Assembly: GCF_000220525.1 (NCBI RefSeq)
Contig: NZ_AFPK01000029.1
Coordinates: forward strand, 6 to 64,005
Direction of reading: 5' to 3'
Source: Ochrovirga pacifica
GTDB lineage: Bacteria; Bacteroidota; Bacteroidia; Flavobacteriales; Flavobacteriaceae
Length of the DNA stretch: 64,000 nt
Shown piece by piece: positions 35,914 to 38,580 of this stretch. Both the position numbers and the translations under genes were made by a program. Each line of letters opens with the position of its first letter. The first letter of the stretch is position 1. Below the pieces are notes generated by a model, which saw nothing but the letters and a program-made list of their open reading frames with translations, did not search any database and was not told the origin of the DNA.

Positions 35914-37314
35914 ATGCGCAATAAGTATATCGATTTAATTAACCAAACTTTTGATTTTCCCCAAGAGGAATTTGACGTAAACGCACAAGGAGAATTGTCT
36001 TTTCATGGACTAGATCTTTCCGAATTGTTAGAAACACACGGAACTCCTTTAAAAATAACCTATTTGCCAAAAATTTCTGAAAATATTCAGAAGACAAAGG
36101 CTTGGTTTCAAAATGCTTTTGAAAAGTACAATTATCAAGGTCAGTATTTTTATTCTTACTGTACCAAAAGTTCTCACTTTAAGCACGTACTAGACGAAGC
36201 TTTGGAAAACAACATCCATATAGAAACCTCTTCTGCTTTTGATATTAACATTGTAAATGCCTTGCTAGAGAGCAAAAAAATAAACAAAGATACCTTTGTA
36301 ATTTGCAATGGGTTTAAAAGAGAACAATACATTAACAACATAAGTGACTTGATTAATAACAAGCACAAAAACTGTATTCCTATTATAGACAACTACGAGG
36401 AATTGTCTTTGCTAGAAGAACAAATAGACGAAGATTTTCAGGTAGGAATTAGAATTGCATCTGAAGAAGAACCTAAGTTTGAGTTTTATACCTCTCGTTT
36501 GGGAATTGGTTATAAAAACATTGTGCCTTTTTACAAAAGACAAATAGAGCATAACCCTAAGGTAAAGCTTAAAATGTTGCATTTTTTTATCAATACAGGA
36601 ATAAAAGACAATGCTTATTATTGGAACGAATTGCACAAGTGTCTTAAGGTATATACTTCTTTAAAAAAAATTTGCCCAGAACTTGACTCTCTGAACATTG
36701 GTGGAGGATTTCCTATTAAAACCTCTTTAGGATTTGAATACGATTACGAATACATGATAGACGAAATTGTATATCAAATACACACCGTATGTAATGATGC
36801 CAAGGTAGAAGTGCCCCATATTTTTACAGAATTCGGAAGTTTTACTGTAGGAGAAAGTGGTGCCAATTTTTACAAAGTATTATACCAAAAGCAACAAAAC
36901 GATCGCGAGTTGTGGAACATGATTGATTCTTCTTTTATTACCACACTACCAGATACATGGGCTATAAACAAACGTTTTATCTTACTACCTATCAACCGAT
37001 GGAACGATAATTACGAACGTGTTTTGCTAGGAGGTTTAACTTGTGATAGTGATGATTATTACAACTCCGAACAACACTCTAACGCTGTGTATTTGCCTGT
37101 ATATCATTCAGAAAAACCTTTATACATTGGTTTTTTTAATACAGGAGCATACCAAGAATCTATTGGAGGATTGGGAGGTTTGCAACACTGTTTAATTCCC
37201 CAACCCAAACAATTAATTATACAAAAAGATAAAGAAGGTAAACTAACAACAACCGTGTTTAGAGAAAAACAAACACATCAAGAATTTTTAAAAATATTAG
37301 GTTATGAAAACTAA
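35914..37314 (+). CDS. speA: Biosynthetic arginine decarboxylase (fold III, PLP)
   Basis: 466-residue PLP enzyme converting arginine to agmatine, the first step of polyamine synthesis. YSYCTKSSHF near residue 75 carries the PLP lysine, SLNIGGGFPIK is the glycine-rich phosphate-binding loop, FTEFGSFTVGESG is a conserved block and GGLTCDS contains the catalytic cysteine. It is shorter than the E. coli enzyme (about 630), as is common for this Bacteroidetes form. Its end overlaps the agmatinase-like gene by 11 bp, so the two are probably translationally coupled. Confidence 0.9.
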   Translation: MRNKYIDLINQTFDFPQEEFDVNAQGELSFHGLDLSELLETHGTPLKITYLPKISENIQKTKAWFQNAFEKYNYQGQYFYSYCTKSSHFKHVLDEALENNIHIETSSAFDINIVNALLESKKINKDTFVICNGFKREQYINNISDLINNKHKNCIPIIDNYEELSLLEEQIDEDFQVGIRIASEEEPKFEFYTSRLGIGYKNIVPFYKRQIEHNPKVKLKMLHFFINTGIKDNAYYWNELHKCLKVYTSLKKICPELDSLNIGGGFPIKTSLGFEYDYEYMIDEIVYQIHTVCNDAKVEVPHIFTEFGSFTVGESGANFYKVLYQKQQNDRELWNMIDSSFITTLPDTWAINKRFILLPINRWNDNYERVLLGGLTCDSDDYYNSEQHSNAVYLPVYHSEKPLYIGFFNTGAYQESIGGLGGLQHCLIPQPKQLIIQKDKEGKLTTTVFREKQTHQEFLKILGYEN

Positions 37315-38242
37315 TTATGCAGGAATCGCTAACGAGTATGCAAAAAAAGAAACTGCAAAAATTGTTCTAATCCCCGTTACTTATAATGGAACAACTACCT
37401 GGCAAACACAGGTAGACCAAGGTCCCGATGCTTTTTTAGAAGCATCGGAATACATGGAATTGTACGACATAGAAACGGATTCTGAAGCATATAAAAATGG
37501 TGTTTATATTTCAGAAAAAATTACAGAAAGTAGCAGTCCTCAAGCTGTAGTAGATCAGGTTTACGACCGTATTAAATCTTACTTAAACACCAACAAGTTT
37601 GTAACCGTTGTTGCAGGAGAACGCAGTACATCTATAGGTACTATTAAAGCTTTTAACGATCACTTTGAGAACTTAACCGTTCTTCAGTTCGATGCACATG
37701 CACACCTGAACAAATCGGTTAATGGAGAAAAAGTAAACAATGCCTGTGCAATGTATCACGCAAGTCAGGCTACCAATTTGGTACAGGTAGGAATTAGAAG
37801 TATGGCTCATATAGAAAAAACGGTTATTGATGATGACAAAGTTTTTTATGCCAACGATCTTGCCACAGACGACTATTGGATGGAGAATGCTTTAGAGATT
37901 ATGTCGGACAATGTGTTTATTTCTTTTGATTTAGACAGTTTAGACCCTTCTATTATGCCTTCTGTTGCCAACCCAGAACAAGGTGGTTTGTTTTGGTTTG
38001 AGACTTTAGAATTTTTATATAAAGTTTTTAACGAAAAGAACGTAGTTGGTTTCGATTTGGTTGGTTTGTGCCCCAACCCATACAACAAAGCACCTAATGC
38101 ATTAGCTGCAAGATTGTATTATAAAATGTTAAGTTATAAATTTGAAATGGAAGGTGAAGATGATGAATTAGGAATTAGTGAATCTGATTTTGCTTCTAAA
38201 GAAAATAAATTTGGGAAATTTCATGACGATTTGGATGCTTAA
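37304..38242 (+). CDS. Agmatinase-like ureohydrolase family protein with altered active site
   Basis: 312-residue arginase/agmatinase-fold protein, expected by position to turn agmatine into putrescine. However, three conserved motifs are changed. GGEHS is AGERS, so the metal histidine is Arg107. DAHxD is DAHAH, so the last metal aspartate is His134. The guanidinium-binding glutamate of the DIVELCP-type block is Gly254 (DLVGLCP). Asp130, His132, Asp209 and Asp211 remain (DLDSLDPS intact). It overlaps speA by 11 bp. It may be inactive, a regulator of SpeA, or an enzyme with another metal site. The acidic C-terminal tail (EMEGEDDELG) is extra. Confidence 0.8.
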   Translation: MKTNYAGIANEYAKKETAKIVLIPVTYNGTTTWQTQVDQGPDAFLEASEYMELYDIETDSEAYKNGVYISEKITESSSPQAVVDQVYDRIKSYLNTNKFVTVVAGERSTSIGTIKAFNDHFENLTVLQFDAHAHLNKSVNGEKVNNACAMYHASQATNLVQVGIRSMAHIEKTVIDDDKVFYANDLATDDYWMENALEIMSDNVFISFDLDSLDPSIMPSVANPEQGGLFWFETLEFLYKVFNEKNVVGFDLVGLCPNPYNKAPNALAARLYYKMLSYKFEMEGEDDELGISESDFASKENKFGKFHDDLDA

Positions 38243-38280: not shown

Positions 38281-38580
38281 ATGAAAAGAATTATAATTGA
38301 TCACACCAAGGTTACAGACGAAATTTTAAACATTATTATGGAGGAATACCCTGATGGTTACACCGATAGAGATGTTTTAAAATTTAAAAATCATAAGGGT
38401 GAAATGGTAGAAGCCTTAGAGATTAAACTAAACGACGATATCTATTTGGTAAAAGTAGGAACTAAGTTAGACAAAGCCATTGTAGAATTTAATGAAGATG
38501 ACGACAATGACGATAACGAACCTAGTGATGATATAGAGGTGGATGACGACAACCTATTGGACGAAGAAGACGAAAAATAA
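38281..38580 (+). CDS. Small acidic conserved hypothetical protein
   Basis: 99 residues with no signal or membrane segment. The first 70 residues are a compact alpha/beta stretch (IIIDHTKVTDEILNIIMEE...YLVKVGTKLDKAI). The last 30 are almost all Asp, Glu and Asn, a disordered acidic tail. I recognise no function. It is the third gene after speA, 38 bp downstream of the agmatinase-like gene, and ends 6 bp before a terminator stem, so it is probably cotranscribed. Confidence 0.7.
   Translation: MKRIIIDHTKVTDEILNIIMEEYPDGYTDRDVLKFKNHKGEMVEALEIKLNDDIYLVKVGTKLDKAIVEFNEDDDNDDNEPSDDIEVDDDNLLDEEDEK

Follow-up and report, generated by a model that had tools for sequence, protein, structure and literature searches.

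What keeps an agmatinase gene in a genome once its product has lost residues of the active site, and can such a product still act as an agmatinase? The question is raised by an open reading frame (ORF) in the 64,000-nucleotide stretch of the Ochrovirga pacifica genome that we analysed (hereafter, the window). The ORF (37304-38242, + strand; 312 aa) occupies the speB position immediately downstream of the gene for a speA-type arginine decarboxylase with a PF02784 domain (35914-37314, + strand; 466 aa). Its start codon at 37304 lies inside speA, the stop codon of which ends at 37314, giving an overlap of 11 bases. The window SpeA is 87-88% identical to the SpeA of four Wenyingzhuangia species. 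Directly after speB is a 99-aa ORF without a Pfam match (38281-38580, + strand), which in relatives follows either speB or the gene for a homospermidine synthase-like protein (DHS, a deoxyhypusine-synthase homologue; PF01916). In the relatives inspected, this small ORF also ends the operon, whether or not DHS or SpeB is present.

Family membership and active site of the window SpeB

The 37304-38242 ORF is an orthologue of the speA-linked flavobacterial agmatinase SpeB. Its match to PF00491 (158.9 bits, against a cut-off of 22) places the protein in the ureohydrolase (arginase) superfamily, and its best solved relative by sequence is 3PZL, an agmatine ureohydrolase (E 5.1e-20). A weak AlphaFold model (mean pLDDT 58, pTM 0.69, 9 sequences), used for fold confirmation only, is consistent with this assignment, with the agmatinases 1WOG, 3PZL and 7LOL among its best fold matches. 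The score with the agmatinase equivalog model TIGR01230 (169.2 bits) falls just under the cut-off of 174.3, which is passed by the intact SpeB of L004 (227.6) and by the W. gilva type (212.1).

The active site of the protein is catalytically degenerate. Reading residues 107, 130, 132, 134, 146, 209, 211 and 254 in order as a signature, an alignment with 203 intact orthologues gave HDHDHDDE for the intact SpeBs and RDHHNDDG for the window. We assigned Escherichia coli numbering by motif order, using the motifs given in the available text of PMC8125230. Four of the six ligands of the binuclear Mn center are retained rather than the full agmatinase set. They comprise all four Mn-B ligands: Asp130 and His132 (codons within 37691-37699, + strand, with Ala131 between; E. 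coli Asp149 and His151) and Asp209 and Asp211 (37928-37936, + strand, with Leu210 between; Asp230 and Asp232). Both remaining Mn-A ligands are replaced, the His (E. coli His126) by Arg107 (37622-37624, + strand) and the Asp (Asp153) by His134 (37703-37705, + strand), the latter at a position altered in all 12 representatives of dead SpeBs. The pair of catalytic and substrate residues expected of an agmatinase (His163 and Glu274) is missing as well. Asn146 (37739-37741, + strand) takes the place of the catalytic proton-shuttle His163 of the NHACA motif, and Gly254 (38063-38065, + strand) that of the guanidinium-binding Glu274; these positions are altered in 11 and 7 of the 12 dead representatives, respectively. 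A sequence-only reading of the window had placed this gene at the same coordinates, with the same strand, length and overlap with speA. It had also named Arg107, His134 and Gly254 and stated that the remaining ligands were kept, all of which the alignment bears out. Its list of substitutions was incomplete, however, as it missed the fourth loss (Asn146), Ala104 at the first Gly of GGEHS, and pocket-region changes that include Asn28 for Asp, Ala168 for Asp and Asn223 for Thr.

Mutants of the E. coli agmatinase indicate how costly such losses can be. Residual activities of about 5% (D153N), 3-5% (H163F) and 1-2% (E274A) are given in the available text of PMC8125230, for replacements that differ from those of the window SpeB at the same three sites. 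The same source assigns His126 to the more weakly held Mn and takes one Mn per site as the minimum for activity of the E. coli enzyme. It also describes, for an agmatinase of Deinococcus radiodurans without known kinetics, an Asn at the His163 position, so that Asn146 alone would not prove the protein dead. Yet with four catalytic sites lost, and E. coli mutants at three of them retaining 1-5% of activity, it is very unlikely, judging from the combined losses, that the window SpeB would have any meaningful agmatinase activity. Sequencing error and chance are ruled out as causes, as the ORF is intact and the losses are common to relatives. Each of the nearest relatives (the Wenyingzhuangia group, 65-73% identical) lacks one or more of the eight catalytic positions.

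The relatives also suggest an order of loss. The W. gilva type (HDHGHDDE) has lost only Asp134 of the eight positions, and G430, the closest relative found (73% identical and aguA-positive), reads HDHNNDDE. The signatures of W. heitensis (HDHRNSDG), W. aestuarii (HDQRSSDG) and the window (RDHHNDDG) are further degraded. All dead members of the clade lack Asp134 but carry different residues in its place, so that this position was probably the first to be lost.

Agmatine deiminase genes and the distribution of dead SpeBs

We did not identify a second agmatinase in the window genome (77 contigs, 99.99% complete), which rules out compensation for the dead SpeB by another agmatinase. The only two PF00491 matches are the window SpeB and a HutG-like ORF, whose match is far below the HutG cut-off (75.8 against 229 bits) and lacks the motif residues by eye. 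This ORF (385 aa; L002 1342-2499, about 54800-55960 of contig C38) lies after an ORF that we named, also by eye, as topoisomerase-like; it may encode another ureohydrolase pseudoenzyme.

The other gene that the sequence-only reading had suggested looking for, an agmatine deiminase gene (aguA), is present. Its single match in the window genome (contig C10; PF04371, E 4.4e-117) scores 210.1 bits with TIGR03380, below the strict equivalog cut-off. Adjoining it is an aguB-like gene for an N-carbamoylputrescine amidase-like protein (TIGR03381, 296.7 bits, likewise below the strict equivalog cut-off). Beside aguA are also a carboxynorspermidine synthase-like gene (NF043000, 415.4 bits, below the cut-off) and a carboxynorspermidine decarboxylase gene (TIGR01047, 518.8 bits, above the cut-off), all four on one strand. 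Both genes of the agmatine deiminase pathway are therefore represented, and the earlier suggestion that putrescine would have to come from another route holds at the gene level. The same kinds of genes, those of contig C10 together with speA, make up the spermidine route of Bacteroides thetaiotaomicron (SpeA-AIH-NCPAH-CASDH-CASDC), as outlined in the available text of PMC10135574. Unlike that route, the window genome also keeps the old speB ORF.

The DHS gene that usually precedes the 99-aa ORF is absent from the window genome, which also rules out DHS as the partner of the dead SpeB there. The PF01916 model matched in 19 of the 29 genomes searched; the 10 negatives were the window genome, six entries for five Wenyingzhuangia genomes (one of them in duplicate) and three genomes that also lack a SpeB match. 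Given the lack of a second agmatinase and of DHS, and the position of aguA and the aguB-like gene beside carboxyspermidine-route genes, agmatine is probably rerouted in this organism. The gene content makes it highly likely that AguA and AguB would have replaced the SpeB reaction.

To place the window in its family, which named relatives indicate to be the Flavobacteriaceae, we used a sample of 397 genomes, 290 of which had a SpeB match of any strength. SpeB was read from 215 of them and aligned for 214, the exception being G084, whose ORF is split over two frames. The approximately 75 matched genomes left unread comprise weak, non-orthologous matches and some orthologues (e.g., G274 and G278). 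We called aguA canonical at a PF04371 E-value below 1e-80, a cut of our own. Matches of any strength came from 118 genomes, of which 53 pass it. Wenyingzhuangia marina was counted once (L059 duplicates L033), and L064, a Crocinitomix MAG, was left out of the counts. Dead SpeBs occurred in 12 of 34 aguA-positive genomes and in none of the 180 aguA-negative genomes read, in all of which the eight catalytic positions were unchanged (Fisher p 3.9e-11, uncorrected for descent, the aguA-negative rows being the best matches listed plus 45 chosen for weaker scores rather than a random draw). Outside the sample, dead SpeBs were also aguA-positive in W. gilva, W. aestuarii, W. heitensis, Lutibacter maritimus and a Lutibacter MAG; L. 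flavus has an intact SpeB and no aguA match. Among the 17 dead ORFs examined, none was broken or carried a stop. ORFs resembling aguB at their start adjoin aguA in all 17 dead-lineage stretches inspected, scored with the model in the window genome only. The SpeB orthologue of G084 (L174), a genome without canonical aguA, could be a true pseudogene or an assembly error.

The dead state arose more than once. On a SpeA tree of 85 rows it needs six changes, at least three of them forced by well-supported branches. The tree was built quickly, its support values are limited to SH-aLRT, and one of its branches is very long. A tree-corrected test of independent pairs, which is underpowered, gave six pairs with one to two agreeing and none opposing (p 0.5-1). 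SpeB is intact in 22 of the 34 aguA-positive genomes with an orthologue, and 19 of the 53 genomes with canonical aguA have no orthologue (18 without a match and G018 with a weak match only), indicating that it is dispensable in many lineages. Intact and dead states occur within one genus (G063 and G284, respectively), as do dead and missing SpeBs in another (g135; G138 [L123] and G333 [L273]). In G333, speA is followed by DHS, with no SpeB between them or elsewhere, a natural experiment on the loss of SpeB. An exception to the association with aguA is G431 (L299 and L300), a single incomplete MAG (85% complete) from the Wenyingzhuangia group, in which no aguA was found. Its speA-speB-DHS operon is intact, and elsewhere it has a second, far-decayed SpeB-like ORF (signature PDKRNNEG, 284 aa) with no adjacent speA. 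The decayed ORF lies beside a small ORF that in Wenyingzhuangia is upstream of speA. Replacement is possible, as is contamination.

Selection on dead SpeBs and its explanation

Dead SpeBs appear to evolve under constraint. We estimated dN/dS by NG86 (YN00 gave no value for 12 of 24 speB pairs), with dS near or past saturation in several pairs. In the five dead-lineage pairs that share most of their losses, the ratio was 0.060 (W. aestuarii-heitensis), 0.080 (Lutibacter), 0.060 (g130), 0.043 (g153) and 0.041 (g154). Values were 0.034-0.041 in single-loss Wenyingzhuangia pairs and 0.079 in a cross-genus dead pair (g135-g91); twelve intact SpeB pairs spanned 0.014-0.109. For speA, dN/dS was 0.014-0.033 in the four of five dead-lineage pairs where NG86 was computable. 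Neutral simulations run to the dS of four dead lineages (0.8-1.3) accumulated at least seven stops in 200 of 200 runs each and reduced protein identity to less than 0.30, against the 0.82-0.90 observed. Constraint is also apparent in the alignment. The 203 intact SpeBs have 118 invariant columns, 97 of which are conserved in the window SpeB and 55 of which are never altered in the 12 dead representatives. The most frequently altered include D134, T223, H146, T207, D168, D209, D211 and E254, with metal, catalytic and guanidinium-binding residues among them. Loss of catalytic residues and purifying selection (dN/dS 0.04-0.08) are thus combined in five dead lineages, as expected of a retained pseudoenzyme. 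For the window itself, the comparison with G430 gave 0.06 at a dS of 2.9, and no sister with unsaturated dS was found; purifying selection on the window SpeB is inferred from the sister pairs of the five other dead lineages. We consider it likely from these sequence comparisons that the dead SpeB would be retained by selection for a non-catalytic role, as a pseudoenzyme rather than junk.

The explanation that we favor, with somewhat better than even confidence, is that this SpeB orthologue lost catalysis after its route had been replaced and was kept as a protein for a non-catalytic job. As judged from the operon of relatives, the ancestor would have made homospermidine by means of SpeA, SpeB and DHS encoded in one operon. 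The lineage would then have gained aguA and aguB, converting agmatine to putrescine by different chemistry, and lost DHS. With its reaction taken over, the active site of SpeB would have been released from constraint, in this clade probably at Asp134 first and then at His146, Glu254 and His107, and the rest of the protein would have stayed under the purifying selection seen in the sister pairs of five dead lineages. When a protein remains under selection although its catalytic residues are gone, a role in binding or scaffolding is suggested. Our best guess is that SpeB serves arginine-to-polyamine metabolism as an oligomeric subunit with such a role. SpeA is the likeliest single partner, although we name it only tentatively, as an identification that is more apt to be wrong than right.

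A narrower form of this explanation, overlapping with it, makes the dead SpeB a control subunit that regulates the stability or activity of SpeA by binding to it. The speA-speB overlap in the window and the presence of speA just upstream of all 17 dead SpeBs are consistent with such a role. A precedent exists in a Fusobacterium ornithine decarboxylase fused to an arginase/agmatinase domain without two Mn-binding Asp, yet the isolated decarboxylase domain had similar activity (PMC8503589, available text). Further, 14 of the 19 aguA-positive genomes without a SpeB orthologue have SpeA (only 50% identical in G393), and the decayed copy of G431 has no speA beside it. We found no clear contact surface lost from SpeA in the absence of SpeB, in a comparison of 13 of the 14 SpeAs; a single column, Leu97, was altered in 4 of the 13, and there was no cluster. 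A role confined to the control of SpeA is for these reasons possible but rather unlikely.

Less probable still is that the dead SpeB is a relic on its way out, its catalysis dispensable after the arrival of aguA and aguB and its ORF only looking kept through slow decay or coupling to speA. Among aguA-positive genomes, SpeB may be intact, dead or deleted, and its state can differ between members of one genus, which would fit such a course, as would the still more decayed copy of G431. So would the raised speB dN/dS between sublineages, a sign of relaxation around the losses: 0.191 for W. aestuarii-gilva (speA, 0.048) and 0.137 for the window and W. gilva (speA, 0.042). The ratio of SpeB to SpeA distance is also higher in dead lineages (1.41-2.13; window, 1.51; W. 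gilva type, 1.41) than in intact ones (median 1.31, quartiles 1.17-1.43), indicating an acceleration that is evident in some lineages but small in the window clade. However, the low dN/dS within five dead lineages persists after most of the losses, and simulated neutral decay leaves far less identity than four of them retain. Coupling, in turn, guards the reading frame and not the amino acids, which rules it out as the sole reason for retention. The weakest alternative, a changed enzyme acting as a mononuclear or different-metal hydrolase on another substrate, with the Mn-B ligands and His134 as a new ligand, draws on the retention of all four Mn-B ligands in the window, G430 and the W. gilva type and on the one-Mn-per-site minimum of the E. 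coli enzyme (PMC8125230, available text). It is nevertheless quite improbable, given that the window SpeB has neither the guanidinium-binding Glu nor the catalytic His and has lost pocket residues, and that the bridging Asp and the two late Asp are missing from parallel lineages (HGHNNNND, HGHNKNNE), leaving no common metal chemistry.

The interpretation offered by the sequence-only reading stands in part. Its pseudoenzyme is well supported by the loss of four catalytic sites, the parallel losses and the purifying selection in dead sister pairs, and its alternative route to putrescine is encoded in the genome. The new metal or substrate that it also proposed is unsupported as an explanation for dead SpeBs in general, given the missing bridging and late Asp ligands of several parallel lineages; for the window SpeB taken alone, which keeps all four Mn-B ligands, it has some, if low, probability. 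We hold firmly to a retained pseudoenzyme and loosely to the identity of its partner. More broadly, the gain of the deiminase route could repeatedly, across the Flavobacteriaceae, have made a conserved pseudoenzyme of the operon agmatinase. SpeB would in that case always have scaffolded the arginine decarboxylase step besides catalyzing its own reaction, and replacement of the pathway would have exposed this older, separable non-catalytic role, a generalization to which we give a little less than an even chance. An enzyme gene displaced by an unrelated pathway would be expected to disappear, yet in several lineages only the catalytic site has been lost and the protein is retained. The closely related intact, dead and deleted states make a hidden non-catalytic function of agmatinases directly testable. 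They also bear on annotation. The SpeB of W. gilva (L058 6001-6930), in which a metal-ligand Asp is changed to Gly, still scores above the agmatinase cut-off of NCBIfam (212.1 against 174.3) and would be called an agmatinase automatically. Homology-based pathway calls in marine Flavobacteriaceae can therefore be wrong.

Comparison with known ureohydrolases

Ureohydrolase pseudoenzymes are already known; recurrent, pathway-linked catalytic loss with retention of the protein is apparently unreported, as we found no such report among the titles and beginnings of abstracts listed. To our knowledge, no link to a replacing pathway has been described for the arginase-like protein of Trypanosoma brucei. 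This protein has an arginase fold without the binuclear Mn cluster (as cited in the available text of PMC8503589 and PMC11271267) and, unlike the window SpeB, is a eukaryotic arginase homologue.

The window SpeB shares with the agmatinase SpeB (TIGR01230; E. coli 7LOL, Thermoplasma 3PZL, D. radiodurans 1WOG) the fold, a near full-length alignment, the place after speA and four of six metal ligands. It differs in the loss of both Mn-A ligands (His and Asp), the proton-shuttle His and the guanidinium-binding Glu, and in scoring just under the equivalog cut-off. MetCb, the metal-free subunit of metformin hydrolase (PMC11271267, available text), is likewise a ureohydrolase pseudoenzyme that has lost metal ligands and is kept as a protein binder, a role proposed for the window SpeB as well. 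The partner of MetCb is an active paralogue encoded in the same cluster; the window genome has no active agmatinase paralogue, which rules out a pair of the MetCa/MetCb kind. The decarboxylase-arginase fusion of Fusobacterium resembles the window in tying a probably dead arginase/agmatinase unit to a decarboxylase of a polyamine route (PMC8503589, available text). There the unit is fused to an ornithine decarboxylase of the AAT fold, whereas in the window it is a separate ORF beside a PF02784 SpeA.
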